A stretch of DNA of 64,000 nt from positions 1-64,000 of the forward strand of contig JABAQR010000037.1 of assembly GCA_019187485.1 (NCBI GenBank), given 5' to 3'. The translations under genes were made by a program, and so were the position numbers. Every line of letters starts with the position of its first letter. The first letter of the stretch is position 1. This stretch comes from Lysobacterales bacterium. Its GTDB lineage: Bacteria > Pseudomonadota > Gammaproteobacteria > Xanthomonadales > SZUA-5. The notes under the pieces are model-generated. The model made no database searches. It worked only from the letters and a program-made list of their open reading frames with translations, and was not told the origin of the DNA. Below, piece after piece: positions 5,423-23,041 of the stretch.

Positions 5423-6148
5423 ATGGACGCTCTGCTCGCTCAACTCGCCGCCAGCCTCGACGACGTCGTCCTCAGCACCGCCGAGAAGCACGCGCTGCAG
5501 GCGGACCTGCGCGCGCGGCCGCTGCGGCCGGACCAGCTACGGCAGTTGCGCAACCACGCCTTCGAGCTGGTGCTGGAACGCGTGCGCGAGGCCGCAGGCG
5601 GCGCGGCGATGCCGGCGCTGGTCCAGTGGCTGAGCGACATCGTCAAGCTGCTCGACCAGGCGCTGCATACCGAGCCGGTCGAGACCGAGGTCTGGTTCAG
5701 CCCCGGCGAGGAATGCCGCGATGCGGTCATCAGCCACCTCGAGGGCTGTCGGCGGCATGCCGACCTCTGCGTGTTCACGATTGCCGACGACGAGATCACC
5801 GCAGCGATCCTCGCCGCGCATCGCCGGCGCGTGGCCCTGCGCGTGATCAGCGACGACGACAAGCGCCACGACTCCGGCAGCGACATCGAACGCCTGCGCA
5901 GCGCCGGCGTCGCAATCGCACTCGATGAGAGCGCCGCACACATGCACCACAAGTTCGCCCTCTTCGACGGCCGCTGGCTGCTCAACGGCAGCTTCAACTG
6001 GACCCGCAGCGCGAGCACGGCGAATGAGGAGAACCTGGTCGCGACCAACGACCCGCAACAGCTCAAGGTCTTCGGCGAGCAGTTCGAGGCGCTCTGGGCG
6101 CGGTTCGGGGGCGCGACCGGTCCAGCAGCAACGCGACCACTGTCGTAG
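5423..6148 (+). CDS. Phospholipase D-like (single HKD) protein
   Basis: 241 residues. The C-terminal half is one PLD phosphodiesterase domain: H175, K177 and D182 form the H-x-K-x4-D motif in HHKFALFD, followed by LLNGSFNWTRSA and EENL, the hallmark of the Nuc/mitochondrial cardiolipin-hydrolase branch, which acts as a homodimer on nucleic acid or phospholipid. The N-terminal 85 residues are helical and unassigned. There is no signal peptide, so it is probably cytosolic, unlike periplasmic Nuc. The next gene is convergent, 8 bases away. The substrate cannot be chosen from sequence. Confidence 0.85.
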   Translation: MDALLAQLAASLDDVVLSTAEKHALQADLRARPLRPDQLRQLRNHAFELVLERVREAAGGAAMPALVQWLSDIVKLLDQALHTEPVETEVWFSPGEECRDAVISHLEGCRRHADLCVFTIADDEITAAILAAHRRRVALRVISDDDKRHDSGSDIERLRSAGVAIALDESAAHMHHKFALFDGRWLLNGSFNWTRSASTANEENLVATNDPQQLKVFGEQFEALWARFGGATGPAATRPLS

Positions 6149-6156
6149 GGGCGCCG

Positions 6157-9100
6157 CTACGACGCCACCCTGGCCCGCACCTGGCTGGGGGCCACGCCGT
6201 AGCGGTTCTTGAAGGCGCGGGTGAAGCTGGACAGGCTGTCGAAACCGCTTGCGTAGGCGACCTCCGAGATGTTGCCGGCGTTGCGCTCCAACAGGCCATG
6301 GCCGTGCGCCAGGCGAGTCTCGCGCAGGTAGTCGGAGGGGCTCATGCCGAGCAGTTCCTTGCAGCGCCGGAACAGGTGCGAACGGTCGGCGTGCATGCTG
6401 CGCGCCAGTTCCTCGACGCCGAAGGCCGGATCGTGCAGCTTCGCCGCGATCTGGCGGTCCAGGCGTTGACGCCAGCGGCTGTCGCCGTCCTCGACCGGCT
6501 CCGGCGCCGGTTTCGGGGCGGCCGCCGCGAGGCGGTGCTGCAAGCGTCGTGCGTGGGCGACGATCGCCTCGCAGCGCGCCAGCAGTTCGCTCGAGTCGAA
6601 GGGCTTGGCGAGGTAGTCGTTGGCGCCCGCCTGCAGGCCGGCGACCGCGTGCTCGCTGCCGGCCTTCGCGGTCAGCAGCAGCAGTCCGATCGCGTGGGTG
6701 TCGGCGTGCGCGCGCACCCGCCGGGTCAACTCGACGCCATCGCAGCCCGGCATCATGACGTCGCTGACGATCAGGTCCGGCAGCTCGTCGCAGGCCATCC
6801 GCCAGGCTTGCTCGCCGTTGGCGGCCTCGATCACTTCGAAGCGCTGGCCGAGCAGCTCGTGCACGCGCGCCCGCAGGTCCTCGTGGTCGTCCACCACCAG
6901 CACGCGCTCGCGGCCGCGCGCGGGTGCGGCGGTGTCGGCCGCTGCTGCTGGCGCGGCCTCCTCGGCCAGCGCTTCGGGTTCGGGCACCGCCAATTCCTCG
7001 GCCGCTGCCGCCACCGGCAGTCGCAAGGTGAAGCAACTGCCGACACCGAGTTCGCTCTGCACGCTCACGTCGCCGCCGTGCGCGAGCGCGATCTCGCGCA
7101 CCAGCGAGAGGCCGATGCCGTAGCCGCTCGCAGCCTCGCTGCCCTCGGCCTGGAAGAAGCGGTCGAACACGTGCGGCAGTGCGTCCGGCGCGATGCCGCG
7201 TCCACGGTCGCGCACGTCCACGCGCCAGCACCCGTCTTCGCGCGCCAGCGCCAGCTCGATCCGGGTACCGCGCGGCGAGAACTTGGCGGCATTGCCGAGC
7301 AGGTTGCCGATGCAGCGTTCGACCTGGGCCGGATCGAAGGCCGCCGGCGCTCGCTCCGGCGCGCACTCCAGTTGCAGTTGCTGGCCGTAGCGCTCGAGCA
7401 GCGGCTGACTTTCGGCGGCGATGCGCCGCAGCAGCGAGGCGAGATCGTGCTGGCCGATGCGCAGGGGCAGCCGGCCCTGTTCGAGGCGATTGACGTCGAG
7501 CAGTTCGACGATCAGGTCGAGCACCCGGCGCGCATTGCGCTGCGCCAGTTGCAGGTGCGCGCGCACGCCGTCGGCGAGCCGGCCGCGGGTGCCCTGCAGC
7601 AAATCGTCGAGCGGACCCAGTACCAGCGTCAGCGGGGTGCGGAACTCATGGCCGACGTTGACGAAGAAGCGGGTCTTCATGCGGTCGACCTCGGCCAGGC
7701 GCTCGGCCTGGGCGACCAGTTGCGCGTTGCTGGCGCGCAGCTCCTCGGTGCGCGCGGCGACGGTGGCTTCCAGCTCGCGCTGGCGCACCAGCATCTGCCG
7801 CTGGCGCCGGCGCGCGCCGAGACGCATCGCCAGCCACAGCGCGAGGATGCCGCTGCCCGCGTAGGCGGCCTGCGCCGGCGCGCTGCGGAACCACGGCGGC
7901 GTGGTCGCGATGACGACCGGTGGCATGCGCACTTCCCGCTGCAGCGCGTCGCGCGCCTCGACCTCGAAACGGAACTCGCCATCCGGCAGGTTGGTGTAGA
8001 CGCGCGCCTGCTTCCCGGACAGTGTCCACTCGCTCCAGTCCTCGAAGCCGGCGAGGCGCGAACGGTAGCCGGTGGCGGCGCCGCGACGCAGGAAGGGCAA
8101 GGCGAAATCGATGTGCAGATCGCGCACCGAGGGCGGCAGTGCGGCGAGCGTGGCGAGCTCCAGGGGTGCGCGGGCGCGGGTGTCGAGCACCCGCGTCAGC
8201 AGCGGCGCCGGCGCCGGCGGCGTCGGCCGGTGTGCGGCGAGGTCGAAACGCAGCAGGCCGTTGGCGCGGATCGCCCAGACGATGTCGCCTTCACGCAGGA
8301 AGCCGAAGATGGTCGGGAAGGGATCGACACCGTGCAGCAAGTCGCGGTCGATGCGCCAGCCGTCGCCCGCGCGCCAGAACACGTCGTTGAGGATCGCGCC
8401 GCCACGCACCCACAGGTGGCCCGCTTGGTCCTCGTAGGCGCTGTACAGGCGGTCCTGCTGCAATTCCGGCGGGAGCCCCGGCGGGACGATGAAACGGTCG
8501 CTGGCGGCGTCGTACACGCGCAGGCCCTGCATCGTCGTGAACCACGGCCGGCGCGGCCCGGCGTAGATGCGCACGGTGCCGGCCGGCAGGCCATCGGCGG
8601 CGCCGTAACGGCGCGGCACGCCCGGATCGGCGAGTTCGATGCGCAGCACGCCGTCGACGCGGTCCGCCACCCACAGCGTGTCCACGTCTTCCTCGGCGAT
8701 GCGCATCACCGGGTTCCGCAGCGATCCGATCTCGCTGGCGCGCACGCTGCCGTCGGCGGCGAGGTCGATCTGCAGCAGGCCCTGTGCGTAGCCGGCGTAG
8801 ACGCGCCCCGCCACGAAGCGAGAGGGTTCCAGCAGCGAGATCTGGTTCCACCGTCCGGGAACGTCGTCGACCCGCCAGCCGGCGCCCTCCGGTCGGACCA
8901 CCCGCAGCGAGCCGTGCGTGGCCAGCAGCACGTCCGCACCGAGCGCCGCGACGCCGTAGAGGCCGCGAAACTCCGGCACCGGCGCATCGACCACGCCGCC
9001 GACCGGCGTGTCGCGCAGGCGGAACAGACCGCTGCGTGAGGCCACCCACAGCGCGCCCTGCCAGCGCGCCACCTGGGCCGCACTCGGCAGGCCGTTGCGT

Positions 9101-10116
9101 TCGTCGAACACGCTCAGCGCGCCGCTGATGCCCAGGCGTGCAAAGCTGCGCTCCTGGGCCAGCCAGAGGTCGCCGTTGCGGTCCTGGTGCAGGTCCGAGG
9201 TGCGCCGCTGCACCGGCACGCCGGCGCGCGCGTCCAGGTGGTCGACCAGCGTGCCGTCGCGGCCGAGCAGGTGGATCCCGTCGAGCAAGCCGGCGACCGC
9301 GACTCGGCCGTCGGCGAGCGCGGCGATCGCGTAGAAGGGCCGCGTGGTTTCGCGGCCGTGCAGGCGCTGCAGCGCATCCGACCACGGCAGCAGCGCGCCG
9401 TCGCGATAGCGCAACACCTGACCGTTGTTGTTCAGCAGCAGTGTGCCATCCGCATCCCGTGTGCTGGCGCTGATGCCAACGCCCTCGAGCGCATCGCTGC
9501 CCGTCACCGGCGTCGCCACAAAGTTCGCGTCGAGCCGGCTGAGCACCGCCGGCGCGCCGTGCACCGCCAGCAGATCGCCGTCGACCAGGAAGGTCTCGAC
9601 CAGTTGCTGCATCGGCGCGCAGCGCACCGGCACCGCCGGGTCGTGCGGCACCCATGCGATCCGCGTCGCCGCCGCGTAGACCACGCCGCCGCGCACGGGG
9701 TCGACATGCACGCTCAAGGTCTCGGCGGCGACGTCGCTGCAGTCCGCCGGCAGGCGCGCGAATACGCTGTGCCACTGCAAGGTACCGCCGGCATCGTCCT
9801 GCCAGTAGCCGATGTCGCCATTGAAGCTGGTGTGGATACGCCCTTGGGCGTCGACGTCGAGGTGCTCCATGCCGCCCTTGGCGTCGGGGTGCAGGTGCAA
9901 CTGCCAGCGCGAACCGTCGTAGCGGAACAGGCCGCGCATATTGGCGACCAGCAGGCGGCCGTCGGGTTGCTCGAGGATGTTGGTGCTGACCGAGGCGCCT
10001 TCCATGGCCTGCACGTCGAAGACCTCGACCGGCAGCGCGCCGCGCTCGCTGGCGGCAGCGCCGGCGATCCACAGCGATCCGATGCAGCGGACGACCACGT
10101 TGCGCATGCACGTCAT
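6157..10116 (-). CDS. Hybrid two-component system protein (sensor, receiver and AraC regulator in one)
   Basis: 1319 residues with the full HTCS order: N-terminal signal/membrane segment, about 14 periplasmic propeller blades (repeats like DGRLLVANMRGLFRYDG), a Y_Y_Y domain near 640-740, a membrane helix near 750, a histidine kinase with the H-box FFVNVGHEFRTPLTL, an ATPase domain (DRGRGIAP, GYGIGLSLVREI), a receiver with phospho-acceptor in DLIVSDVMMPG, and a C-terminal AraC HTH (VEELARSMHADRSHLFRRCK). Such proteins sense an extracytoplasmic ligand and bind DNA directly; they are best known from Bacteroidetes glycan loci. It lies 100 bases downstream of the CSLREA gene at 10217 in the same direction, so those genes may be its targets. 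An ATG at 10107 is an alternative start. Confidence 0.92.
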   Translation of the reverse strand: MTCMRNVVVRCIGSLWIAGAAASERGALPVEVFDVQAMEGASVSTNILEQPDGRLLVANMRGLFRYDGSRWQLHLHPDAKGGMEHLDVDAQGRIHTSFNGDIGYWQDDAGGTLQWHSVFARLPADCSDVAAETLSVHVDPVRGGVVYAAATRIAWVPHDPAVPVRCAPMQQLVETFLVDGDLLAVHGAPAVLSRLDANFVATPVTGSDALEGVGISASTRDADGTLLLNNNGQVLRYRDGALLPWSDALQRLHGRETTRPFYAIAALADGRVAVAGLLDGIHLLGRDGTLVDHLDARAGVPVQRRTSDLHQDRNGDLWLAQERSFARLGISGALSVFDERNGLPSAAQVARWQGALWVASRSGLFRLRDTPVGGVVDAPVPEFRGLYGVAALGADVLLATHGSLRVVRPEGAGWRVDDVPGRWNQISLLEPSRFVAGRVYAGYAQGLLQIDLAADGSVRASEIGSLRNPVMRIAEEDVDTLWVADRVDGVLRIELADPGVPRRYGAADGLPAGTVRIYAGPRRPWFTTMQGLRVYDAASDRFIVPPGLPPELQQDRLYSAYEDQAGHLWVRGGAILNDVFWRAGDGWRIDRDLLHGVDPFPTIFGFLREGDIVWAIRANGLLRFDLAAHRPTPPAPAPLLTRVLDTRARAPLELATLAALPPSVRDLHIDFALPFLRRGAATGYRSRLAGFEDWSEWTLSGKQARVYTNLPDGEFRFEVEARDALQREVRMPPVVIATTPPWFRSAPAQAAYAGSGILALWLAMRLGARRRQRQMLVRQRELEATVAARTEELRASNAQLVAQAERLAEVDRMKTRFFVNVGHEFRTPLTLVLGPLDDLLQGTRGRLADGVRAHLQLAQRNARRVLDLIVELLDVNRLEQGRLPLRIGQHDLASLLRRIAAESQPLLERYGQQLQLECAPERAPAAFDPAQVERCIGNLLGNAAKFSPRGTRIELALAREDGCWRVDVRDRGRGIAPDALPHVFDRFFQAEGSEAASGYGIGLSLVREIALAHGGDVSVQSELGVGSCFTLRLPVAAAAEELAVPEPEALAEEAAPAAAADTAAPARGRERVLVVDDHEDLRARVHELLGQRFEVIEAANGEQAWRMACDELPDLIVSDVMMPGCDGVELTRRVRAHADTHAIGLLLLTAKAGSEHAVAGLQAGANDYLAKPFDSSELLARCEAIVAHARRLQHRLAAAAPKPAPEPVEDGDSRWRQRLDRQIAAKLHDPAFGVEELARSMHADRSHLFRRCKELLGMSPSDYLRETRLAHGHGLLERNAGNISEVAYASGFDSLSSFTRAFKNRYGVAPSQVRARVAS

Positions 10117-10216
10117 CCGTGTCGTGGGCGATCGAAATTACAGAAGCGATGCCGGATCTGGAAGATTCGCGCGAGTGGGGGCGCGTGCGCCGCGACCCGA
10201 ACGCCCGCTCCATGCA

Positions 10217-13200
10217 CTACTCGAAGCCATCCGCGAACAGGTTCTGCGGGAGCGGCGCGACCAGGCAGTTGGAGATTTCGCTGGTCGATCCGTCCGGCGA
10301 AGTCGCGGTCGCGGTGACAAAGCCCGCCAGCGGCGGCGCGTCGAAATCGATACTGAAGTTCTCCGAGGTGCTGCTGAGGGGCACTTGGACCGAGCTCAGG
10401 GGGAGGTCGCCGCGGCGACCGCCGAGGATGCCACCGGTGTCGCTGCACAACTGGCTGCGATGGAAGGTCAGGCGGTACAGCACCGGCGTGACGATGCCGG
10501 CCGGCACGTCGAGCACGCCGTTGATCGTGAAGCCGGTTGCGTCGGCCGATGCGTCGGTCAGCAGCGGCGTGTTCTGGCCGTCGTTGGCGCCAGTGTCGAC
10601 ATCGTTGACGTCGTTCGGGTTGATCCCGTTCGGGGTGCCGGTGTCGGTGAGGTCGATCGCGGTGGCGCCGGTCTGGCCGCGGAAGCGGTTGCCGAACAGG
10701 CTGTTGCGGTCGCTGCCGGTGCCCGATACCAGGATCGACACGCTGCCGCCGGTGAAGTCGTTGCGCAGGGTCCCGCCGATGGCGACGTCGCTGACGTCGA
10801 TGAGTTCCACGCTGCGGTCGTTCGAAGCCGCCTGCTGACGGTCCGGGGAGAGTCCGAACAAGTTGAGGGTCGCCGTGCTGCCGCCGGCGGCGCTGCCGAA
10901 AATGCGCACACCCGCTTGCGCGTAGTTGCCGATCACGTTGCGGTCTGCCAGCGCGTTGCCGCCAAGCTGCAGCACCGTGTTGCTGGCGAGAATGCCGACG
11001 CTGCCGCCGATTCCGCCGCCATCGGCGCGGAATCCGATCCAGTTGCCGCGCACGCGCAGGGTGCCGTTCGCGCTGCAATTGCCGGCGTCGTTGACCCGGG
11101 TGGCGATGGTCGCGCTGCTGCCGCCGTGGATCGCAAGGCCGCGCACTTCGACCTGGCCGCTCGTGCAGGTGCGCAGCGCATGGCTGAGGCCGGTCGCCGC
11201 GAGTTCGATCTTGAGCACCGCGTTGGAATCCAGACCGTCCGCATTCGGCACCGCGCCGAGCTGGGTGTAGCCATCGATGCTGGTCGCGCCGGTGATCGGC
11301 GGCAGCGTAGCGGCGAGGCCGATCAGGTGCGGGCCGTCGCCCGGAATCGCGAAGCGAATGTTGTCGGCACCGGCCTGGGCGTTTGCCAACTGGATCGCCT
11401 CGCGCAACGTGCAGGTGTTGGCATCGCCGCTCTGCGTGCAGCCGCCATCGGTGCTGGTGCTGTCGGCAGCGCTGTCGACCGCAATGCCGGGCGGCGGATC
11501 GCTGGCCGCGATGCACGCGCCCATCTCGCTGGTGCCATCGGCGCGCGTGACCGTCGCGGTGATCTGCTCGAACTGCACCAGGTCAACGTCGCTCAGGACG
11601 GCGACGTCGAAGGCGTTGCCGGCCATCCCGAAGCTGCCGAGGTAGATCGTGCCGGGGCCGTGGCCATTCGGGTGGCACTGGTCGGACGCGTACACCGCAA
11701 CCGTCGAGGGCTCGAAGCCGATGACCGGGGAATCGAAGCTGCCGACCACGCGCACGCCGCTGTCGGTGCGCTCGGCAAGGGTCAGCACCGGGAAGTTCTG
11801 CAGGCCATTCGGGCCACTGTCGCCGTCGCCGGGATCATTCGGTGTCAGCCCGTCGAGACCCAGGTCGATCGGAATCAGGTTGCTGAGCCCGAAGTTGTTC
11901 GCTGCGAGCACGTTGCCGATTCCGGCGCTGGCGAGCAACTGGATGTGCGCCGAGTTGAAGCGGAAATGGTTGGGCGCGGCATCGCTGCCGATCACGACGC
12001 CGGCCGCGCCGGCGGCCAGCTGCACGCCCTGGCCGTTGGCGCGGTCCAGGGTACCGCTGCGGTCGCTGCCGATCAGGTTGCCGAGCACGCTGCTGCCGCT
12101 GATCCCTGCGCCGGCGAAGTTGATCGCGGTGCCGTTGTCCGCGATCACATTGCGGTCAGCCGGCGCCTCGCCGCCGACGCGCAGGCGCACGCCGTCGCTG
12201 TTGACCGCGCGGGTGTTTCCGGCGGCGGTCGTGCCATCGGCGGCGAGGCCGATGAAGTTGCCGGCGATGACGCTGTCGACGCCGTTGCAGCCATTGAAGG
12301 CATTCGTGAAGCGCGTGACCGAGAGCCCGCGCACCACGATCGCGCTCGCGCACAGGTTGAAACCGGTCGCGTTGGCGCCGGCGTTGACGCCGTCGATGCG
12401 GATGCGCGGCACCGCATTGCTGACGGTCGCATCGCTGTTGGCGACGCTGCCGGGCTGCGTGTAGCCATCGATGGTCACGCCGCGCGTCACCGGGGGCAGC
12501 GGCGAGACTGGCTGGATCAGGATCTCGCTGCTGCCGCTCAGCGGCGGCACCGCGAAGTGGATGCTGCGCAAGCCGGTGCCGCTGAAGTTGTTGGAATCCA
12601 GGATCGCCTCGCGCAGCGTGCAGTGCGTGGCGCTGCAGGAACCATCGGCGGTGTCGCCGGTGTTGTTGACCACCAGTGGCGACGGGTCCAGCGGGAAGCA
12701 GGCGGAGAACTCGCTGGTGCCGACGCCGGTGCGCGTGGCCGTCATCGTGATCACGGTGCCGGCCGGCAGCGCATCGGTGGTCGACTGGGTGTAGCTGAAG
12801 GATTCGCTGGTCGAAGAGAAGGTGCGCGTCTGCACGCCGAGGATGCGCTCGCCGTCGCCGTGGCCGCCGGCGTGGCACTGCGCGCTGGCGTAGGCGCGCA
12901 AATGGTAGGAGATGCTGCCCGGGTGGCCGACATCGAGGCTGCCGGACAGCGCCACACCTCCCGGCACGCGCTGCGCGTTGGTGAGCACCGGGAAGTTCTG
13001 CAGATCGTTGGCGCCGATGTCGAGGTCGTTGGCGTCGTTGGCGGTGATGCCGTCGCTGCCGAGGTCGATGCCGAGAGTGTCGCTGGCGCCGATGCGGTTG
13101 CCGGCGAAGCTGATGTTGCGCGCGCTGCCGCGCACGACGATGCCCTTCCCGTAGTGGCGGATCGTGTTCGCCAGCGCGCTGCCGAGCGTCAGCGCGGTGG

Positions 13201-13972
13201 CGTCGACCACATCGATGGCGGTGCCACCGCCCAGATCACCGCTGCCGTTCTTGCCCATGCCGAACAAGTTGCCGTCGATGCTGGAGCCGTCGGCACCGGT
13301 GCCGTTGAGGATCACGCTGCCACCGAAGAAGGCGTTGGTACCGGCGATCACGTTGCGATCGGCCAGGTTCGCGCTGCCGACCGCGACCAGCGTGCGCGCG
13401 ATCAGATTGGTGGCGTTGCCCTGCGCGGAGTTGCCGGTGCTTGGCAGTCCGAGGAAATTGCCATGCACCTGCGTGTTGCCGGCGGTGCATGCGGCGCTGC
13501 TGTTGCTGAAGCCGACCGCGACGCCGCGGTTGAAGCGGGTGATGGCAAGGCCGCGAATGCTGACGTCGGCGGCGCACACCGCGAGTCCGACGCCGCTGCC
13601 GCCCGCGCTGGTGCCATCGAGGCGCACGCGCAGCACAGCATTGCTGAATTCGGAATCGTCGTTGACGCGGGTGCCGCTCTGCGAATAGCCGTTGATGGTC
13701 AGCGGCGCCGTGATGTTCGGCAGCGAGGTTGCCGGCTGGATCAAGAGTTCGCCGCGCGGCGGAGTCGTGATCGCGAAGTTGATGGTGTCGGCCGTCGGCG
13801 TCGCGTTCGCGGCGTTGATCGCCTGGCGCAATGTGCAGGTACTGCTGCAGGTGCTCCCGGCGGTGTCCGCGACGCTGGTGACGATGAAGGTGGCGGCCGG
13901 CAGCGTGGCGGGCAGCAGGCCGATGGCGCAGGCCAGCAGCGGCAGCAGGTGAGTGCGGGAAACTCGAATCAC
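10217..13972 (-). CDS. Exported CSLREA/right-handed beta-helix protein, DGFE tail (copy 1)
   Basis: 1251 residues. After a signal peptide (LLPLLACAIGLLPATLPAA) come three modules, each opening with a CSLREA-type motif (CTLRQAINAAN, CTLREAILDSN, CTLREAIQLAN), then GYxQ and a parallel beta-helix (DRNVIAGT, VIGNLIG types), and closing with an acidic, calcium-site-like turn (DLDIGANDLQNFPVL). The protein ends LFADGFE. The start is GTG at 13972: GGAGA sits 7 bases before it, and the GTG overlaps the TGA of the preceding gene (GTGA). The role is probably a secreted or surface protein; ligand unknown. It is a paralogue of the gene at 14420-18202, with the small gene at 13969 between them. Confidence 0.88.
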   Translation of the reverse strand: MIRVSRTHLLPLLACAIGLLPATLPAATFIVTSVADTAGSTCSSTCTLRQAINAANATPTADTINFAITTPPRGELLIQPATSLPNITAPLTINGYSQSGTRVNDDSEFSNAVLRVRLDGTSAGGSGVGLAVCAADVSIRGLAITRFNRGVAVGFSNSSAACTAGNTQVHGNFLGLPSTGNSAQGNATNLIARTLVAVGSANLADRNVIAGTNAFFGGSVILNGTGADGSSIDGNLFGMGKNGSGDLGGGTAIDVVDATALTLGSALANTIRHYGKGIVVRGSARNISFAGNRIGASDTLGIDLGSDGITANDANDLDIGANDLQNFPVLTNAQRVPGGVALSGSLDVGHPGSISYHLRAYASAQCHAGGHGDGERILGVQTRTFSSTSESFSYTQSTTDALPAGTVITMTATRTGVGTSEFSACFPLDPSPLVVNNTGDTADGSCSATHCTLREAILDSNNFSGTGLRSIHFAVPPLSGSSEILIQPVSPLPPVTRGVTIDGYTQPGSVANSDATVSNAVPRIRIDGVNAGANATGFNLCASAIVVRGLSVTRFTNAFNGCNGVDSVIAGNFIGLAADGTTAAGNTRAVNSDGVRLRVGGEAPADRNVIADNGTAINFAGAGISGSSVLGNLIGSDRSGTLDRANGQGVQLAAGAAGVVIGSDAAPNHFRFNSAHIQLLASAGIGNVLAANNFGLSNLIPIDLGLDGLTPNDPGDGDSGPNGLQNFPVLTLAERTDSGVRVVGSFDSPVIGFEPSTVAVYASDQCHPNGHGPGTIYLGSFGMAGNAFDVAVLSDVDLVQFEQITATVTRADGTSEMGACIAASDPPPGIAVDSAADSTSTDGGCTQSGDANTCTLREAIQLANAQAGADNIRFAIPGDGPHLIGLAATLPPITGATSIDGYTQLGAVPNADGLDSNAVLKIELAATGLSHALRTCTSGQVEVRGLAIHGGSSATIATRVNDAGNCSANGTLRVRGNWIGFRADGGGIGGSVGILASNTVLQLGGNALADRNVIGNYAQAGVRIFGSAAGGSTATLNLFGLSPDRQQAASNDRSVELIDVSDVAIGGTLRNDFTGGSVSILVSGTGSDRNSLFGNRFRGQTGATAIDLTDTGTPNGINPNDVNDVDTGANDGQNTPLLTDASADATGFTINGVLDVPAGIVTPVLYRLTFHRSQLCSDTGGILGGRRGDLPLSSVQVPLSSTSENFSIDFDAPPLAGFVTATATSPDGSTSEISNCLVAPLPQNLFADGFE

Positions 13973-14358
13973 AGCAGGTCTCCAGAAGTTGCGGAGGAAG
14001 GAGCGTCGGATGCGCAGGGGCGCTGCGGTGCCTGTGGCAGTTCGCGCAGGCAGGCTTCCAGGGTGTGTTTCAGGCGCGTGGCGGTGGTTGGCATGGCCGC
14101 GTGCCAGTAGCCGGGTGCGAGGCAGGTCAGAGCTTCGCTGCCGTCGATGGCGCCGAGCCACAACGTCGGCCGCAAGACCGTTCCCGAAGGCTCGCAATCG
14201 ACTACCCACAGGTCGGCAACGCGGACGTTGCCTGCGCGCCCGACGCGCGCCTGCGGCCAGTGGCGCGCGAGTTCGCCGATCAGGTAGGCGGCGAGCTCGG
14301 CGTCGACATCCAGCGCGATGCGCGGCGGCAGGCGTGTGAGCGGAGCGGAGCGAGGCAT
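13969..14358 (-). CDS. Small receiver-like protein of unknown function
   Basis: 129 residues without a signal peptide. The ATG at 14358 has AGGA five bases upstream; an in-frame ATG at 14403 lacks a ribosome site. The stop (13971-13969) overlaps the GTG start of the downstream CSLREA gene, so the two are translationally coupled, which supports a real gene. By eye the chain alternates like a degraded response-regulator receiver: IALDVDAELAAYLIGEL (strand, helix), ADLWVVDCEPSG (possible phospho-acceptor D), PTLWLGAID, then GYWHAAMPT where a receiver would have its Lys-Pro. That reading is inference, and the conserved lysine is missing. I do not recognise a named family. Confidence 0.65.
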   Translation of the reverse strand: MPRSAPLTRLPPRIALDVDAELAAYLIGELARHWPQARVGRAGNVRVADLWVVDCEPSGTVLRPTLWLGAIDGSEALTCLAPGYWHAAMPTTATRLKHTLEACLRELPQAPQRPCASDAPSSATSGDLL

Positions 14359-14419
14359 CGGATTCCTGCTGGTTGGCGCGCGACGGGTGGCTGGTACGGG
14401 CATGGCCGGCGGCCGGCGG

Positions 14420-17400
14420 CTACTCGAAGCCGTCTGCATGGAGGTTGTCTGGCCGCGGCGCGGCCAGGCAGTTGCCGAACTCGCTGGTCGAGCCCGCCGG
14501 CGAGGTCGCGGTGGCGGTGATGAAGCCGGCTTCGGGTGCCACCGCCAGGGTCACGCTGAAGCTCTCGGCGCTGCTGCTGAAGCCGCGCAGCAGCGAACCG
14601 AGGTAGACCTCACCCTCGCGGCCGGTACCGGCGCTGTCGTTGCAACTGGCGCTGCGGTAGAAGGTCAGGCGGTAGTCCACCGGGCTGGCGATGCCGCTCG
14701 GCACGTCCAGGGTACCGGTCAGCGTGATGCTGTCGCTGGTGGCGCTGCCGGCCTGCAGCACCGGCGTGTTCTGGCCTTCGTTGGCGCCGCTGTCGGCGTC
14801 GTTGAGATCATTCGGCGTGATCCCGTCCGGGCCCGCGCCCGCGGCGAGGTCGATGGCGGTGCTGCCGGTGTGCAGCGCGAAGCGGTTCGCGTGCAGGCGA
14901 TTGCCGTCGGCGCCGGCGCCGGTCACCAGGATCGCGACCGCCGAGCCGAAGAAGCGGTTGGCGAGCGCGCCCTCGCCGCCGACCGTGCAGTTGGAGGCGT
15001 CGACGAGGTCGATGTCGCGCGCGTTCGGGTGGTTGAGGCCGTCGCCGTCGCGGCCGAACAGGTTGTTCTGCACCTGGCTGCCGCCGGCGGTGGCGCCAAA
15101 GATGCGCACCGCGGTGCCGGTGGCGCGTGCGAACAGGTTGCGGTCGGCTGCGGCGGGGCCGCCGGCGGTCAGTGCGCCGCCGCCGGCCTGGATCGCGGTC
15201 GCCACCGCGGAGGATGCGCCGGACGCGCGGATCCCGAACTGATTGCCGCGCACGCGCAGGGTGCCGTTGAGCGCGCAGTTGCCGGTGTCGTTGACGCGGC
15301 TGGCGATCATCGGCCCGGTGCCGGCGAAGAAGGCGATGCCGCTGACCTCGACCGCTTCGCTGGTGCAGATGCGCAAGCCGTTGGCGAGCCCGGCGGCATT
15401 GAGTTCGATGCGCAGCACCGCATCGAAGCCGTCCTCGCCGGCGGCGTTCGGTGTGGCGCCGTCCTCGCTGTACCCATCGATGGTCAGGCCACCGGTGATG
15501 ACCGGCAGCAAGGCAACCGGGTTGATCAGGTGCGGGCCGTTGCCGGGGATCTGGAAGCGGATGCGGTCGGAACCGGACTGGCTGTTCGCCAGCAGGATCG
15601 CCTCGCGCAGCGTGCACGGGTTGGCGTCGGCGACGATGTCGCAGCCGCCGTCGACGGTCAGCGAATCGGCGTTGCTGTCGACCGCGATGCCGACCGGCGG
15701 ATCGGTCGCCTGCAGGCAGGCCGAGAACTCGCTGCTGCCGTCGGTGTGGGTGGTGATGGCGGTGATGAAGGGCAGGGCGACGAGATCGGCGTCGGTCGCG
15801 AGGATCACGTCGAAGGCTTCGCCGACACTGGCGCTGCCCAGCAGTTGCTGGCCTTCGCCGTTGCCGCTGGGGTGGCAGGTGGCGCTGGCGTGGAAGTGCA
15901 GCGTCAGGCTGCCGGCGGCCGGCGTGCCCGGAACATCGACCGTGCCCACCAGGCGCGCGCCGGCGACATTGCGCTCGGCCAGCGTCAGCAGCGGGAAGTT
16001 CATGCGTCCGTTCGGGCCGCTGTCGGCGTCGCCGGGGTCGTTCGGCGTGACCCCGTCGGCGCCGAGGTCGATCGCCAGCACGCTGGAATCGGCGTAGAGG
16101 TTGTCGCCGAACTGCACCTCGCGCGCGCCATCGGTGACCGCGATCGCGCGGCCGTTGAAGCGGAAGCGGTTGGGCGCGTCGGCGGAGCCGATGAACACCC
16201 TGACGCTGTCATCCACCACCGACACCGCAGTGCCGATAGCGCGATTCAGGCCTCCGCTCTTGTCGCTGCCGAACAGGTTGCCGAGGACCTCGCGGCGGAT
16301 CGAGGAAAAGGCCGACGCCGAGTTCATCTCGACACCGGTGGTGCCGCCGGCGAAGACATTGCGATCGCCGATCGCCTGGCCACCGATCGTCAGCGGCGAG
16401 CCGCCGGTGCCGTCGAACACGATGTGGCGTGCGTTGGCGCCGGGCGTCGCACCGTCGGTGCGCAGGCCGAAGAAGTTGCCGGCGACGGTGCCGCCGGAAC
16501 TGTTGTCGCAACCGGCGCGCTTGAAGCCGATGCCCTCCTCGAAGCCGGTGAAGGCGAGTCCACGGATGAGCACCTGGGAGGCGCAGACGTCGAATCCGAC
16601 CGGCGCACTGGCGCTGCCGGCGAGCCGGATGCGCGGGATCGCGTTGCTGAACTCGGGATCGGTGTTGACCAGCGAACCCGGCTGCGAGTAGCCGTCGATC
16701 AGGAATCCGCGCAGGATCCGCGGCAGCGGCGTCGCCGGCGCGATCACGATCTCGCTGCTGCCGGTCAGCGGCGGAATCGCGAAGTTGATGAACTGCTGGC
16801 CGGCGCCATTGAAGGTGTTGGCGCTGTTGATCGCCTCGCGCAGCGAACAGTGGGTGGCGTTGCAGACGCCGTCGTCGACGTCGTCGGCGCTGTTGACCAG
16901 CAGCGGCGGCGGATCGAGCGCAAAGCAGGCCGAGAACTCGCTGTTGCCGGCGGCGGCGTTGCTGCTGCGCACGATCGCGGTGATCACAGTGCCGGTCGGC
17001 AGCGGGTCGCTGGTGACCACGTTGCCGGTGAAGAAGTCATTGGGACTGCTGACTTCGCGCTGGAACTCGCCGAGGAAGCGTTCACCCTCGCCGTTGCCGC
17101 TGGCATCGCAGGCCGGTGAGGCGTACAGCTCGAAGAAGTAGGACTCGGTGCTGGTGTGGCCGACGTCGAGGGTGCCGCTGGCGCTGATGCCGTCTTCGTT
17201 CCGGGAAGCGCCGTTGATGACCGGGAAGTTCTGCAACTGGTTCGGGCCGTTGTCGAGGTCGTTCAGATCGTTCGGGGTGACCCCGAGCGTGCCGAGGTCG
17301 ACGCCGAGCCCGTCGTTGTCGTGGATCGCGTTCTGCGACACGCGCGTGTTGACGCCGCCGTTGATGTGCACGCCGGTGCCGTTGAAGCGGATCGTGTTGC

Positions 17401-18202
17401 GGAAGATGAAGGCGTTGTTGTAGCTGTCGTTGACGCGCACGCCGGCAGCGGCATTGCCGAAATCCTGCGAACCGCCGCGGTCGGTGCCGATCAGGTTGCC
17501 GATGACGTCGCTCAAGCCGCTGAAAGTGCCGCGCAGCTCGATGCCGAAGACGCCGTTGGCGGAGATGACGTTGCGGTCGGCTGCCGCGCTGCTGCCGATG
17601 TCGACCACCGAGGCGGCCACGCGGATGCCGGTCCCGGTGTTGCCCGCGCTTGCGGTGCCGCTGTTGGCCAGCCCAATGAAGTTGCCGTGCAACTGCACAT
17701 TGCTGACCGCACCGGTGCAGGGCGAGTCGCCGACGATGATGCCGTGCTGGGCAAAGCGCGTGACCGCGATGCCGCGCACGCTGCTGTTGCTGGCGCAGAT
17801 GGCGAGGCCGTGCGGGGCGCTGCTTCCCACGGCAGCACCGTCGATGCGGATGCGCACCGTCGCATTGCTGACCGTGGTGCTGTCGTTCAGGCACGAACCG
17901 GGCTGCGAGTAACCGTTGATCGTCAGCGGCTGGGTGACCGGTGGCAGGTTGCTCAGCGGCTGGATCAGGATGTCGCCACGCGGCGGGAAGGTGTCGATGT
18001 CGAAGTTGATGGTGTCGGTGGCGCTGGTGGCGTTGGCGGCGGTGATTGCCTGGCGCAGCGTGCACACCGAACCGCAGCCGCTGCCAGCGGTGTCGGCGCG
18101 GCTGGTGACCACGAAGGTGGCCGCGCGCAGCGGGCCGGCGCAGAGCAGCAGGAGGCCGGCGAGTGCCGGCAGGCGGCGGATGAGAGCGGCGATGAGGTGC
18201 AC
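14420..18202 (-). CDS. Exported CSLREA/right-handed beta-helix protein, DGFE tail (copy 2)
   Basis: 1260 residues with the same architecture as copy 1: signal peptide (LPALAGLLLLCAGPLRA), then three modules headed by CTLRQAITAAN, CSLREAINSAN and CTLREAILLAN, each with beta-helix repeats (DRNVISANG, VIGNLIGTDRGG) and an acidic closing turn (DLDNGPNQLQNFPVI, DADSGPNGRMNFPLL, DADSGANEGQNTP). The C-terminus is LHADGFE. The start is GTG at 18202 with GGAG 7 bases upstream, matching the context of copy 1. It is the first gene of a co-directional set (this gene, the small receiver-like gene, copy 1, HTCS). Upstream lies a divergent promoter region with an inverted repeat. Function unknown beyond being exported. 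Confidence 0.88.
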   Translation of the reverse strand: MHLIAALIRRLPALAGLLLLCAGPLRAATFVVTSRADTAGSGCGSVCTLRQAITAANATSATDTINFDIDTFPPRGDILIQPLSNLPPVTQPLTINGYSQPGSCLNDSTTVSNATVRIRIDGAAVGSSAPHGLAICASNSSVRGIAVTRFAQHGIIVGDSPCTGAVSNVQLHGNFIGLANSGTASAGNTGTGIRVAASVVDIGSSAAADRNVISANGVFGIELRGTFSGLSDVIGNLIGTDRGGSQDFGNAAAGVRVNDSYNNAFIFRNTIRFNGTGVHINGGVNTRVSQNAIHDNDGLGVDLGTLGVTPNDLNDLDNGPNQLQNFPVINGASRNEDGISASGTLDVGHTSTESYFFELYASPACDASGNGEGERFLGEFQREVSSPNDFFTGNVVTSDPLPTGTVITAIVRSSNAAAGNSEFSACFALDPPPLLVNSADDVDDGVCNATHCSLREAINSANTFNGAGQQFINFAIPPLTGSSEIVIAPATPLPRILRGFLIDGYSQPGSLVNTDPEFSNAIPRIRLAGSASAPVGFDVCASQVLIRGLAFTGFEEGIGFKRAGCDNSSGGTVAGNFFGLRTDGATPGANARHIVFDGTGGSPLTIGGQAIGDRNVFAGGTTGVEMNSASAFSSIRREVLGNLFGSDKSGGLNRAIGTAVSVVDDSVRVFIGSADAPNRFRFNGRAIAVTDGAREVQFGDNLYADSSVLAIDLGADGVTPNDPGDADSGPNGRMNFPLLTLAERNVAGARLVGTVDVPGTPAAGSLTLHFHASATCHPSGNGEGQQLLGSASVGEAFDVILATDADLVALPFITAITTHTDGSSEFSACLQATDPPVGIAVDSNADSLTVDGGCDIVADANPCTLREAILLANSQSGSDRIRFQIPGNGPHLINPVALLPVITGGLTIDGYSEDGATPNAAGEDGFDAVLRIELNAAGLANGLRICTSEAVEVSGIAFFAGTGPMIASRVNDTGNCALNGTLRVRGNQFGIRASGASSAVATAIQAGGGALTAGGPAAADRNLFARATGTAVRIFGATAGGSQVQNNLFGRDGDGLNHPNARDIDLVDASNCTVGGEGALANRFFGSAVAILVTGAGADGNRLHANRFALHTGSTAIDLAAGAGPDGITPNDLNDADSGANEGQNTPVLQAGSATSDSITLTGTLDVPSGIASPVDYRLTFYRSASCNDSAGTGREGEVYLGSLLRGFSSSAESFSVTLAVAPEAGFITATATSPAGSTSEFGNCLAAPRPDNLHADGFE

Positions 18203-18277
18203 GACGGGTCTCCGGGATCGCGGTGGCCGCAGTCTCGGCGTGCGCCAAAAACCTCGTTTGACCCCAGGTTGCCAGCG

Positions 18278-18297
18278 CTTGACATGGCGTTGTCAAG
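18278..18297. promoter_or_regulatory. Inverted repeat in divergent promoter region
   Basis: CTTGACA, six bases, TGTCAAG: perfect 7-base arms between the divergent genes at 18202 (minus) and 18447 (plus). Because the arm contains TTGACA, each strand carries a consensus-like -35 here, but I find no convincing -10 at 16-18 bases on either strand (AAGTAC at 18302-18307 on plus is weak). It may be an operator or a factor-dependent promoter element; the regulator is unknown. Confidence 0.4.
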
Positions 18298-18446: not shown

Positions 18447-19604
18447 ATGGCCATCGCCTCCCTGCAGTTCCCGCCGCCGATCCGCCGCCGCCTGACGGTG
18501 GCGCCGCGCGACTACGAGCGCCGCGACCGCGCGGTCGAGCTGTTCGAAGCCGGCGAACTCCTCGCGGCGGTGCACGAGACCCTGGGCTACCTGCTGCCGG
18601 CATTGTCACCGCACGACCTCGCGCAGGGCCCGCTGTGCTTCGTGCAGGGCACGGCGCGCGTGCGCCTGCGCCTGGAGGACGGCCGCCTGGTGGTTTCGAG
18701 CGCGCTGATGGCGATGCGCGAGGGCGCCCAGGCCACCGCGGTGCTGCGCTACGCGCTGACGCGGCTGTCGGCCACCGGCCAGTTGTTCCAGCCGCGGCTG
18801 CAGGAAGGCGTGCTGTCGCTGGAGTTTGGCGACCGCCTGTCGTTGCTGCACCCCTTGAAGCTGATCGAGGTGCTGCAGCGCCTGCCGACCGAATCCGACA
18901 ATCACGACGGCTGGCTGCAGCAGCGCTTCGGCGTCGATGCGGCCGATCGCGAGCCGCTGGCCGCGCTCGAGGAGGCCGAGCTGGCGCTCGCGCTCGAGAT
19001 CTGGCGCGCGCACTGGGAAGCGGTCGACCGGCTGCTGCTGGAGTCGCGCCGGCGGCGCTCGGTACGTTTCCTGGACTCTCTGGGTTCCTGGGCCGCCAAC
19101 CAGGTCCGCTACGCGCTGCCGCTGCACGGCAGTGTGCGCGCCACTCTCAACGAAGCGGCCGACGAGTTCACCGACAAGGACGAGAACCCCAACCGACGCG
19201 ACACCGCGCTGTCCAGGTGCTGCCGCGAGATGCGCCAGGTGGGTGAGGAGGAGTTGCGCCGTTGCCTCGGCCACGCCAGCTATGCGATCAACCCACTGCA
19301 CGAGGGCACGCCCTCGCTGCTGAGTTCGGTGCTCGGCGGCCAGCGCCTGCAGACCAGCGGCGAGTTGCGCGCGGCCGGCCGCTACCTGGAGTCCGCGCTG
19401 GAACTGGTCGCCGACTACCTCTACCTGCTGGCCGACCACAGTTGGCCGGAGACCATCGACCACAAGCTGCAGGCGGCGCTCGCCGAAGTGTCCGGCAGGC
19501 CCTGGCGGGAGGTCGCGGCGACGTTGTGGAGTCACGCAAATCAAATCGCGCGCCAGTTCGGAAGCAGCGCCGGCGGGGACGAAGAGGACAACGATGGCAA
19601 CTGA
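18447..19604 (+). CDS. YbjN/CesT-like domain protein, partner of the downstream protease
   Basis: 385 residues, cytosolic, no known catalytic motif. Residues about 25-160 show the strand-rich fold order of CesT/YbjN-like chaperone domains (VRLRLEDGRLVVSSALMAM, then LSLEFGDRLSLLHP, then a helix ending DNHDGWLQQRFG). The last helix parallels DAVDNLLIQQYG in the next protein. Residues 170-380 are mostly helical and contain ETIDHKLQAALAE near the end; I do not recognise them. The ATG at 18447 starts just after a purine-poor leader. The 3' end overlaps the protease start by 11 bases, so the two are made together. The fold reading is inference; a profile search would settle it. Confidence 0.75.
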   Translation: MAIASLQFPPPIRRRLTVAPRDYERRDRAVELFEAGELLAAVHETLGYLLPALSPHDLAQGPLCFVQGTARVRLRLEDGRLVVSSALMAMREGAQATAVLRYALTRLSATGQLFQPRLQEGVLSLEFGDRLSLLHPLKLIEVLQRLPTESDNHDGWLQQRFGVDAADREPLAALEEAELALALEIWRAHWEAVDRLLLESRRRRSVRFLDSLGSWAANQVRYALPLHGSVRATLNEAADEFTDKDENPNRRDTALSRCCREMRQVGEEELRRCLGHASYAINPLHEGTPSLLSSVLGGQRLQTSGELRAAGRYLESALELVADYLYLLADHSWPETIDHKLQAALAEVSGRPWREVAATLWSHANQIARQFGSSAGGDEEDNDGN

Positions 19605-20727
19605 CGCCACCCACCCGCTCGAGGACATCGAGCGTCTGGGCGTCTATCAGGTCTACACCGGCACCGGCACCGGCAGCGGCTTCCTGATCGACGCCACCCA
19701 TCTGCTGACCAACTGTCATGTGGTCCAGCCCTACCGCGAGGTCGCGGTGGAGATGCGCGACAAGACCCGCATCGTCGGCCGCGTGCGCCGCGTGCACCCG
19801 CACCGCGACCTCGCCATCCTGGAACTGGCGCGCCCGGTCGACGGCGAGGTGCTGGCGCTCTCCGATGGCGCCCACTTGAAGCCCAAGCAGCCGGTGCACA
19901 TCCTCGGCTTTCCGGTCGGTCTGCCGCTGTCGCTGACCGAGGGCGTGATCTCGCATGTACGCCAGTTGCTGGACGAGCAGTTCTTCCTGCAGACCGATGC
20001 CGCGATCAACCCCGGCAACTCCGGCGGACCGATGCTGGACGACCAGCGCCGCATCATCGCCGTCACCACCTGCAAGCTGAACGCGGCCGAGTCGGTGGGC
20101 TTCGGCATCCCGATCGCCGACGTGCGCCAGTTCGTCGAGGCGTTCCACGCCCAGGTGGTGCCCTTCGGCGTGCACTGCCCGACCTGCGACGAACTGATCG
20201 ACCGCGCCGTGCGCTACTGCCCGAGCTGCGGCGCCGACCTCGAAACCCACCACGATTTCGGCGACTACTTCGAGGCGCCCGAGCTGCATCCGCTGACGGT
20301 CTTCGTCGAGCGCGCACTGGCCGAATCGGAGATCGATCCGGTGCTCGCGCGCCACGGCAGCCACAACTGGAGCTTTCATGTCGGCAGCGCGCCGATCAAG
20401 ATCTGGTGCTGCTGCTCGGAGCACCTGAACTTCTCCTCGCCGATGGCGCAGACGCCGAACAAGGGTCTGGATGAGCTGTTCGGTTTCCTGCTGTCCGCCG
20501 AACACGCGCCCTACGGCTTCGATCTGGTCGGCAGCACCGTGCGTCTGAACCTGGTGGTGCACATCTCCGACGTGTTCGCGCCGGACGAGCACGCGCATCT
20601 GGTCGAACGCGTGCGCAAATTCGTCCACAAGGCCGATGCGGTCGACAACCTGTTGATCCAACAATACGGCTGTCAGCCGGCACCCGAGACCCAGACCGAA
20701 CAATTGAAGAGCGAGCACGGCGCCTGA
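19594..20727 (+). CDS. Cytosolic trypsin-like serine protease with zinc ribbon and YbjN/CesT-like tail
   Basis: 377 residues. A trypsin/DegP-type domain spans 1-185 with the triad H42 (TNCHVV), D72 (HRDLAILEL) and S143 (NPGNSGGPM). Instead of a PDZ domain it has a four-cysteine zinc ribbon (C195, C198, C209, C212: CPTC...CPSC), then a C-terminal domain of about 120 residues that looks YbjN/CesT-like (FLLSAEHAPYGFDLV, VRLNLVVHISDVF, DNLLIQQYG). There is no signal peptide or membrane helix, so unlike DegP/DegQ it should act in the cytosol. It is translationally coupled to the upstream gene, which appears to share the C-terminal domain. Substrate unknown; a regulated stress or conflict protease is a guess. 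Confidence 0.88.
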   Translation: MATDATHPLEDIERLGVYQVYTGTGTGSGFLIDATHLLTNCHVVQPYREVAVEMRDKTRIVGRVRRVHPHRDLAILELARPVDGEVLALSDGAHLKPKQPVHILGFPVGLPLSLTEGVISHVRQLLDEQFFLQTDAAINPGNSGGPMLDDQRRIIAVTTCKLNAAESVGFGIPIADVRQFVEAFHAQVVPFGVHCPTCDELIDRAVRYCPSCGADLETHHDFGDYFEAPELHPLTVFVERALAESEIDPVLARHGSHNWSFHVGSAPIKIWCCCSEHLNFSSPMAQTPNKGLDELFGFLLSAEHAPYGFDLVGSTVRLNLVVHISDVFAPDEHAHLVERVRKFVHKADAVDNLLIQQYGCQPAPETQTEQLKSEHGA

Positions 20728-20740: not shown

Positions 20741-23041
20741 TCACTCGAAACCGTCGGTGAACAGATCGTCGTTGGCGCTCTCGAAGCCGTTGCCGAACAC
20801 CGCCTGCGGCGGGCCGCCAGCGACGCAGTTGTAGCAGACCAGCGCAAAGTCCTGGCGCGGACTGACCGCGGCATGCGGGCTCAGCGCGTCGGCGGCGATG
20901 GTCGCGGCGAGCACGCGCAGCTCGAAGCTCGCGCCGGAGTGCTGCGCCGGCGACAGGAACACGCCCTCGAGGTTGTTGCGCGCGTCGGCGCTGCCGCCGC
21001 TCGCCGAAAAACCGCTGGTGGCATCGATGACGTTGCCGCGGTAGGTGGCCCCGGCAGTGACGCTGAGGTCGAGGTCGTTGGTCCACGACGGCGTGGTGCC
21101 GCCGCTGCCGGGGCCGGGCGCGTCGGTCCAGGCGAGCATGATGCGCACCGGCTCGGCGGGGTCGTCGGCCTGCAACTGCACCGTGTACTCGTTGCCGCTG
21201 GCGGTGAACACCGTGTCCTGGTCGTGCAGCCAAACCTCGACGCCGGGGTTGATGACCGCATCGAGGTTGATGCGGCCCCAGCCGGCGAGGCGGTTCGGGC
21301 GCTGCGGGATCACGCGGCCATCGGCGTCGAGGCGGCCGATCAGGTTGTCGGCGGCAGCGGTGAAGACCGCCTTGACCAGCGCCGGACTCGGATCCTCGCC
21401 GTGCACATCGCGATGCCGCTGCCAGTACAGCGCGCTGGCGCCGGAGACCACCGGTGAGGCCATGCTGGTGCCGCACATGCTGCCGAAGGAGGTGTCGCTG
21501 GTGGCGGTCAGGCTGTCGGTGGAGCAGCCGGGGGCGACGATGTGCGGCACCGTGCGCCCGTCGCAGGCCGGCCCGTGCGCGCTGTTGGAGGAGACGTCGA
21601 ACATCGCGGCGCCGGGCTGGCTGCTGCCGCTCAGCATGCGCGTGGAGCCCACCGAGAACAGGTTCTTGGCCTCGTCCGGGGAGCCGAGCGAACTCGGCGC
21701 GCAGGGGCCGGTGTTGCGGTCGCCATTGCCGTTCATGACCGACCACACGGTCAACACCGGCTGGTTGCCGGCGACGGTGGAATCGGCATCGCGCGCGATC
21801 AGGTCGACCTGCATGGTCGGAATGTCGTAGCCCTGCGGCGTGCTGGTCGGGCCCCAGGAGTTGTTGGCGAGCTGCGCGCCGCTGCTGGCGGCGTCGCGGT
21901 AGATCGAGATCATGCCGTTGGCGACCATGCCGCCGGGGCCGCCGGCGCTCAGGAATGGGTTGTAGCGCAACTGGATCACGCTCGCGCCCGGGGCCACGCC
22001 CTGGCCGCGCAGGAAGCCGCCGGCGTCGAGGATTCCGGAGCTGCCGCGCCCGGCCACGGCGCCCGCGACGTGGGTGCCGTGCGCGTTGTTGCTGGCGGTG
22101 CAGGCGCCGTTGGAGCCGACGCAGGGCACCACCGCGGCGGCGATGTCGACGTGCGTGGTGCGGATGCCGCCGTCGACGATGGCCACGCGGACCCCGGCGC
22201 CGTTGACGCCGGTCGGGGTCAGCCAGTTCAGGTAGCCGGGCTGGATCACGAACCCCGCGTCGTAGCCGCCGACGATCGACTGGTGGGTCATCTCGCTGCG
22301 CTCGCCGCCACTGCGCTCGATGCGCTGCAGCGTGTAGACGCCCGGAATCTGCGCGGCGGCGAGGAAGGCGGCGCCGGCGAGGTCGAGCTCGACCAGCGTC
22401 AGTTCGTCGATGAAATCGCTGCGCTGCACGAGCGTGCCCCCGGCCGTCGCCAGCGCCTGCAGCACCGGGTCGGCGCGTGCGCGGTCGACCAGACCCATCG
22501 CGCGCACCGGCGCCGGCTCGAGGCCGCGGCTCTGCGGCGGCACCCGCTGCGCCGGCAGCAGGGGCCCGGTCCAGCGCACCGCGGCGCTGCGCGACTGCAG
22601 CGTCGCCAGTTGTTCCGCGTCGGCCCAGACGATGTAGCTGAAGGGTGCGAGGTAACGCACCGCGCGCACGCCCGCGGCCTGCAGCTCGGCAAGGTCTTCG
22701 GGACGCGGCGGACCGTACAGTTGCACCAGGCGGAAGTCCGCGCCGCCGTGGCTGGCCGGCTGCAACCAGGGGTTGCCACCGGCGACGACGCCCTGCAGCG
22801 GGTCCACGCGCGCGCCATCGATCGACAGCGCGTGGGCGTCGACGACGCGCTGGGCGCGCGCATGCGTGGCCAGCTCCGGGGCATCCTGCTCGGGCAACCA
22901 GACGAAGCCGCCGTAGTCGATCGCGCTCGCCGGCAGGCGCGCGCGCAGCGCGGCGTCGGGGCGGTCGATGCGCAGCCAGGTGTCGGCGTACGCGTGGCCG
23001 CCGAGCAGCAGCGCGAGCGGGAGCAGGGAGCGACGGAACAT
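20741..23041 (-). CDS. Secreted subtilisin-like (S8) serine protease with DGFE tail
   Basis: 766 residues. A signal peptide (MFRRSLLPLALLLGGHAYA) is followed by a propeptide-like region of about 250 residues and the S8 domain with D290 (AIVDGG), H321 (NNAHGTHVAG), oxyanion N394 (ANNSWG) and S526 (GTSMASPVVSG). A jelly-roll-like region follows (RIMLAWTDAPG, WTNDLDLSV). The C-terminus doubles the tail motif: VFGNGFE and then LFTDGFE. The ATG at 23041 is chosen because it begins the signal peptide; the 49 upstream codons are arginine-rich and not conserved in look. It is convergent with the cytosolic protease, only 13 bases away, and probably degrades extracellular protein. Confidence 0.9.
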   Translation of the reverse strand: MFRRSLLPLALLLGGHAYADTWLRIDRPDAALRARLPASAIDYGGFVWLPEQDAPELATHARAQRVVDAHALSIDGARVDPLQGVVAGGNPWLQPASHGGADFRLVQLYGPPRPEDLAELQAAGVRAVRYLAPFSYIVWADAEQLATLQSRSAAVRWTGPLLPAQRVPPQSRGLEPAPVRAMGLVDRARADPVLQALATAGGTLVQRSDFIDELTLVELDLAGAAFLAAAQIPGVYTLQRIERSGGERSEMTHQSIVGGYDAGFVIQPGYLNWLTPTGVNGAGVRVAIVDGGIRTTHVDIAAAVVPCVGSNGACTASNNAHGTHVAGAVAGRGSSGILDAGGFLRGQGVAPGASVIQLRYNPFLSAGGPGGMVANGMISIYRDAASSGAQLANNSWGPTSTPQGYDIPTMQVDLIARDADSTVAGNQPVLTVWSVMNGNGDRNTGPCAPSSLGSPDEAKNLFSVGSTRMLSGSSQPGAAMFDVSSNSAHGPACDGRTVPHIVAPGCSTDSLTATSDTSFGSMCGTSMASPVVSGASALYWQRHRDVHGEDPSPALVKAVFTAAADNLIGRLDADGRVIPQRPNRLAGWGRINLDAVINPGVEVWLHDQDTVFTASGNEYTVQLQADDPAEPVRIMLAWTDAPGPGSGGTTPSWTNDLDLSVTAGATYRGNVIDATSGFSASGGSADARNNLEGVFLSPAQHSGASFELRVLAATIAADALSPHAAVSPRQDFALVCYNCVAGGPPQAVFGNGFESANDDLFTDGFE

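Follow-up and report, generated by a model that had tools for sequence, protein, structure and literature searches.

Hybrid two-component system (HTCS) regulators have been described for glycan use in Bacteroides (PMC3404733, PMC3878776), where they stand beside their targets in polysaccharide utilization loci (PULs), and the motif predictions reported in PMC3878776 give direct repeats for all predicted HTCS motifs, with a mean distance of 21 bp. Proteins with the CSLREA domain (TIGR04214) include an Acinetobacter protein reported among those reduced in the supernatant of a type II secretion system (T2SS) mutant (PMC9245377). Here we describe a locus of a Lysobacterales bacterium in which genes of these two kinds lie together, within a 64,000-nucleotide stretch of contig JABAQR010000037.1 that we refer to as the window. 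The regulator has the domain string of the AraC-type HTCSs of Bacteroides PULs, is encoded beside its presumed targets and is accompanied by a candidate operator of the same 21-bp direct-repeat geometry, whereas these targets would be giant secreted proteins of the beta-helix, Ig or NHL type, in a host of the order Lysobacterales. We consider it probable that the block is an autoregulated HTCS operon acting via this operator, and that the same HTCS clade and operator serve other giant proteins in the order. The parts are all of known kinds. To judge from the open-licence literature, in which our search returned no report of CSLREA or giant proteins under HTCS control, the joining of an HTCS with a 21-bp operator and giant secreted cargo appears to be undescribed.

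The window belongs to a 3.83 Mb genome in 81 contigs (completeness 99.5%). A first-pass annotation, made from the letters alone, had proposed that two giant CSLREA proteins, a small protein and an HTCS form one co-directional block, and all four genes were indeed confirmed on the minus strand, in the order CSLREA-A, SMALL, CSLREA-B and HTCS:

18258..18292, minus strand: candidate HTCS operator, direct repeat CAAC-N5-GTCAA x2, period 21 bp, 0 mismatches
14420..18202, minus strand: CSLREA-A, GTG start, 1260 aa, signal-peptide-like start, three CSLREA units of ~400 aa, C-terminal ...NLHADGFE
13969..14403, minus strand: SMALL, 144 aa, or shorter if the start is at 14358
10217..13972, minus strand: CSLREA-B, 1251 aa from GTG 13972, three CSLREA units, C-terminal ...NLFADGFE
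6157..10116, minus strand: HTCS, 1319 aa, Reg_prop/Y_Y_Y sensor, HisKA, HATPase_c, receiver and AraC-type HTH, last gene of the block

The start of CSLREA-B was moved from the position given in the list of open reading frames (ORFs), 14209, which is too far upstream, to the likely GTG at 13972, which overlaps the SMALL stop codon by four bases (GTGA) and encodes a signal-peptide-like beginning. CSLREA-A and SMALL are spaced by 16 bp, or by 61 bp with the later SMALL start, and 100 bp (10117-10216) lie between CSLREA-B and HTCS. The block is bordered downstream by a convergent gene (5423-6148, plus strand) and upstream by divergent plus-strand genes above 18202.

In the HTCS, the HisKA, HATPase_c, Response_reg and AraC HTH domains were each found above cut-off in a single chain, together with Reg_prop (22.9 bits, cut-off 20.4) and a sub-threshold Y_Y_Y match (22 bits, cut-off 26.6). 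His823 and Asp1119 were invariant in an alignment of four sequences, and a hydrophobic stretch, judged by eye, lies ahead of HisKA. Since the sensor part is less conserved between genera than the part from kinase to AraC domain, the ligand may differ between genera. The HTCS of genome G007 (L084:5564-9973, minus strand) is extended by a long repetitive stretch, inserted between its kinase and its receiver, that the window HTCS does not have. Relatives of the HTCS at E≤1e-120 were found in 24 of 299 genomes of the order, and the best three of 44 genome-contig matches were proteobacterial, two of these three being named Lysobacterales. A transfer from Bacteroidetes, at which the first-pass annotation had hinted, is not favoured by this distribution, as judged without a rooted tree.

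Gene order, domain content and the conservation, placement and recurrence of the operator can be read directly from the sequences. The order CSLREA-SMALL-HTCS, with one CSLREA gene, recurs in G007 and G004, two genomes of another genus of the same family, which argues that the association is more than chance. In alignment with the window, the regions upstream of the CSLREA genes in these two genomes, which appear to agree with each other throughout their 350 bp, had the same specified operator bases with 0 mismatches. A scan of eight loci returned 0-mismatch operators in the window, L144 (G007) and L145 (G004), and also 2-mismatch sites with the 21-bp period before the HTCS gene of L143 (G022) and the CSLREA gene of L086 (G008). 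The G008 site sits between the CSLREA gene and the N-terminus of a divergent HTCS; this N-terminus and the HTCS on contig C643 probably belong to a single gene that the assembly has split. G007 and G004 each have a second CSLREA gene, and both of these were preceded by an operator with one mismatch. Over 11 genomes there were 12 sites at ≤2 mismatches, seven of them upstream of CSLREA or HTCS genes; the window site was the single one in its own genome, and 30 shuffles of the 64-kb window gave 0 matches at this level. A 1-mismatch operator at L219:1501-1535 (G007:C29), which has a receiver domain on its divergent side and is followed downstream by an unidentified protein, marks a possible further regulon member.

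Across the order, the strict operator pattern, CAACNNNNNGNCAW-N7-CAACNNNNNGNCAW, gave 31 matches in 27 of 398 genomes, and the reversed pattern gave one. A locus was obtained for 30 of the 31, and 16 of these 30 had an HTCS, CSLREA or giant homologue within 1.5 kb. A tight form with CAACC in both halves accounted for 16 of the 31 strict matches; a locus was obtained for 15 of these, 12 of which belong to the 16 loci with HTCS, giant or CSLREA genes. The tight form gave 0 matches in 369 genomes of the class. A weight matrix was then built from 17 sites, not all of them independent, and with it six of 20 held-out HTCS loci (L122, L119, L189, L187, L120 and L117) scored 13.9-46.4, in every case 14 bits or more beyond the highest of three shuffled versions of the locus in question. 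A conserved pair, L228/L229, was dropped as unrelated, with other sequence adjacent and no HTCS.

AraC-type domains touch two successive major grooves, and two copies 21 bp apart would bring two AraC-type monomers onto the same side of the helix. In the window, the 35-bp operator ends 55 nt ahead of the CSLREA-A GTG, and other strict sites with a nearby target start lie ~35-65 nt before it, a placement compatible with activation. Because the 21-bp geometry matches the Bacteroides motifs and the sites stand next to HTCS genes, binding by the HTCS is the most economical reading. The expectation that the HTCS regulates its neighbours is strengthened by an independent cis-element, the conserved repeat that precedes the operon as well as other CSLREA and HTCS genes, and this candidate operator is most likely the site from which the HTCS activates its own operon. 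For binding, activation and autoregulation, as for the ligand, the location of the proteins and the function of the cargo, we infer the following course of events. The HTCS would span the inner membrane, its periplasmic sensor domain would detect a ligand, and it would then phosphorylate its own receiver. The AraC-type domain, as a dimer, would bind the two direct repeats just upstream of CSLREA-A and switch on CSLREA-A, SMALL, CSLREA-B and the HTCS itself which, as the last gene of the block, would thereby amplify itself. The CSLREA beta-helix proteins would be exported to or beyond the cell surface, and SMALL might, speculatively, act as a receiver-like partner of the HTCS.

Several observations weigh against such a circuit, both at the locus and in the order. 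A separate HTCS promoter could lie in the 100-bp gap between CSLREA-B and HTCS. Among full-length HTCSs, the nearest one (G022, 54%) stands without a CSLREA neighbour, and the CSLREA homologue of G011 has neither a neighbouring HTCS nor an operator site. Of the 12 sites with up to two mismatches, five (a pair each in G011 and G007 and a single one in G002) precede a target without homology to CSLREA or HTCS proteins, and at 14 of the 30 strict-pattern loci neither the HTCS queries nor the giant queries gave a match. No clear operator site was seen at 14 of the 20 held-out HTCS loci, and at L120 and L116 the best operator places precede another large ORF and not the tagged HTCS neighbour. Many of the sites come from one family (f10) and are thus not independent. 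At three mismatches the reversed control gave more matches than the operator pattern, so this level carries no weight, and the operator evidence was restricted to ≤2 mismatches or the strict forms.

Elsewhere in the order, HTCS genes were often found next to genes for giant secreted proteins. The domains of these neighbours included choice-of-anchor Q, Big_9, NHL, DUF11, FG-GAP, Calx-beta and choice-of-anchor D, and several of these giants end in IFxDxF-type tags. Counting by eye, we found an end-tagged or CSLREA protein within 1.3 kb of 12 of 29 HTCS genes, a lower bound given that several of the remaining genes are on short contigs, and an untagged neighbour of at least 1300 residues beside four more. 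L075, L081 and L071 (kept as a separate row) are outside the 29, being on short contigs or merged with G008. The C-terminal tag occurred in 13 of 300 ORFs of at least 250 aa in 28 loci, a list that includes spurious frames. We conclude from these sequence comparisons that related HTCSs in Lysobacterales appear often to control giant secreted proteins. More tentatively, and with slightly more doubt than belief, we suggest a circuit dedicated to giants, in which one HTCS clade and one operator type, GCAACC-N4-G-N-CA(A/T) x2, would serve targets of unrelated folds (CSLREA beta-helix proteins, Ig/NHL/choice-of-anchor giants and FGE-like proteins), often with an FxDxF(E/G) tag and, in one family, with a receiver-like small partner.

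In the window itself both giants end in [FH]ADGFE, and an S8 protease at 20741-23188 ends in FTDGFE. The pattern [FHL]xDGFE followed by a stop was found at 14 places in the genome (10217-10231, 14420-14434, 20741-20755 and 11 others), the reversed pattern at 0, and the frames read with this end encode secreted-looking proteins of unrelated kinds. The end may be an undescribed export or sorting tag; a search for DGFE in the open-licence literature returned a sole match, from human genetics. At L250, the protein downstream of the operator, which we take to be FGE-like from its sequence, has an FSDRFE stretch after a signal-peptide-like start. Since such FSDRFE-type stretches lie near the N-terminus of FGE-like proteins, the tag may work from either end of a protein. 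FGE-like proteins near the operator were also seen at L242, L243, L244, L246 and L249, with an FSDRFE-type stretch near the N-terminus after a signal-peptide-like start.

Turning to the giants themselves, TIGR04214 matched three stretches each in CSLREA-A (E 8.8e-19) and CSLREA-B (E 2.3e-18), both above cut-off. Twelve repeats of ~400 residues, from the window and two relatives, aligned with a mean column identity of 51%, and AlphaFold2 on this alignment, for unit 1 of CSLREA-A, gave a model with pLDDT 82.5, in which a long stack of strands is followed by a beta-sandwich. VIA-align matched the model to parallel beta-helices (top Z 24.7, rmsd 5.2, 323 aligned) and further to alginate lyases, epimerases and tailspikes (Z ~18-22); Foldseek was weak, with just two matches at E≤0.001. 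The unit is thus modelled as a right-handed parallel beta-helix plus a beta-sandwich, in agreement with the beta-helix assignment of the first-pass annotation. The fold is that of beta-helix polysaccharide lyases, epimerases, phage tailspikes and the adhesin PfbA, to which, however, the CSLREA unit is 8-21% identical, with no active site identified and with an additional beta-sandwich per unit. As for other TIGR04214 proteins, such as the one reported as T2SS-dependent in Acinetobacter, the CSLREA domain and the signal-peptide-like start are shared, whereas the window proteins have three CSLREA units each, a C-terminal [FH]xDGFE and an HTCS in the operon. The giants are probably exported and act at or beyond the cell surface, in a glycan-binding, glycan-processing or adhesive role. 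They had been called duplicated, and they are paralogues; a recent duplication was rejected, as CSLREA-B has a nearer relative in the CSLREA protein found in the sister genus (58%) than in CSLREA-A (52%), and CSLREA-A is 51% identical to the G007 protein. The pair is accordingly old, and either predates the split or was exchanged. Relatives of the protein labelled P0003 at E≤1e-60 were found in five of 299 genomes of the order.

SMALL matched no Pfam or NCBIfam family, Response_reg included. With its own genome counted, it was found by sequence in three of 61 relatives and by profile in four of 398 genomes of the order. The proteins of G004 and G007 are 54-57% identical to it and stand in the same gene order, and in G005 a remote homologue (E 6.1e-6) is encoded immediately upstream of an HTCS, so that SMALL lies directly ahead of the HTCS in two further genera, as it does in the window when CSLREA-B is disregarded. 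The G005 gene before SMALL and HTCS (L081:3-662, plus strand) encodes a different kind of surface protein in that position, the end of which resembles, as we presume from its sequence, an intramolecular chaperone of the tail-fibre type. When a profile of the four SMALL sequences was compared by hhalign with receivers of the same genomes, the score was 30.4, whereas 30 column shuffles reached no more than 16.2; the probability was 17-27% (weak) with three sequences and 26-55% with four. In this remote alignment, all four sequences have an Asp that closes the putative third strand and is aligned with the phospho-acceptor. By this possible counterpart and by its weak profile similarity SMALL recalls single-domain response regulators, unlike which it has neither the acidic pair nor the conserved Lys of receivers; its structure prediction from a single sequence (pLDDT 50.1) is too low for use. 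We therefore did not adopt SMALL as a response regulator, and offer, as speculation, that it is a degenerate receiver-like partner of the HTCS.

We next weighed other explanations of the locus. A PUL-like role in glycan use, with CSLREA beta-helices that cleave or bind a polysaccharide and an HTCS that senses the released oligosaccharide, is favoured by the alginate lyases, mannuronan epimerases and rhamnogalacturonan lyases among the beta-helix matches and by the glycan sensing reported for Bacteroides HTCSs (PMC3404733, PMC3878776). However, adhesins and tailspikes have the same fold, the other operator targets are giants of the Ig/NHL type and, as had been noted for glycoside hydrolases, no glycoside hydrolase, lyase or SusC/SusD family of the kind known from Bacteroides PULs was matched in the block, in a domain scan of seven window proteins. 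We consider this role unlikely on the whole; as the fold is shared with polysaccharide lyases and epimerases, the HTCS may, as the first-pass annotation suggested, sense a ligand that the giants release or bind. Alternatively, the HTCS might monitor the state of the envelope or of secretion and induce the giants for attachment or biofilm formation, with SMALL modulating the phosphorelay as a receiver-like protein. The large secreted or surface-type targets of differing folds across the order would fit, as would the profile similarity of SMALL to receivers and its position directly ahead of the HTCS in two further genera, but SMALL lacks a Response_reg match, the acidic pair, the lysine and a confident fold (pLDDT 50), and we find this alternative quite doubtful.

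Improbable, in our view, is that another AraC-type regulator, encoded in cis or in trans, binds the repeat, and that the HTCS is only carried along, being transcribed from its own promoter and acting on other targets. Further AraC-type proteins are encoded in the genome, the 100-bp gap precedes the HTCS, and other HTCSs have no CSLREA neighbour or site; against this, the site also tracks HTCS genes (upstream in G022, at the divergent pair of G008 and in several families), and its 21-bp period agrees with the motifs reported in PMC3878776. That HTCS and CSLREA genes are adjacent by chance, with no functional link, is highly improbable, for even though the two are also found apart in relatives, their order is kept across genera despite ~50% divergent proteins, with a conserved operator that is shared across loci.

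Beyond the block, and divergent from it, a trypsin-like/HtrA-type protease with a zinc ribbon is encoded at 19594-20727 (plus strand), adjoining a gene of an unknown family.

If Lysobacterales do have a circuit dedicated to giants, HTCSs would be surface-protein switches, and not only switches of glycan use. A conserved operator through which proteobacterial HTCSs are tied to giant secreted proteins would widen the HTCS family to include surface-protein control, offer a concrete and testable 35-bp site, and predict regulons for proteins that are otherwise annotated only by their repeat domains.

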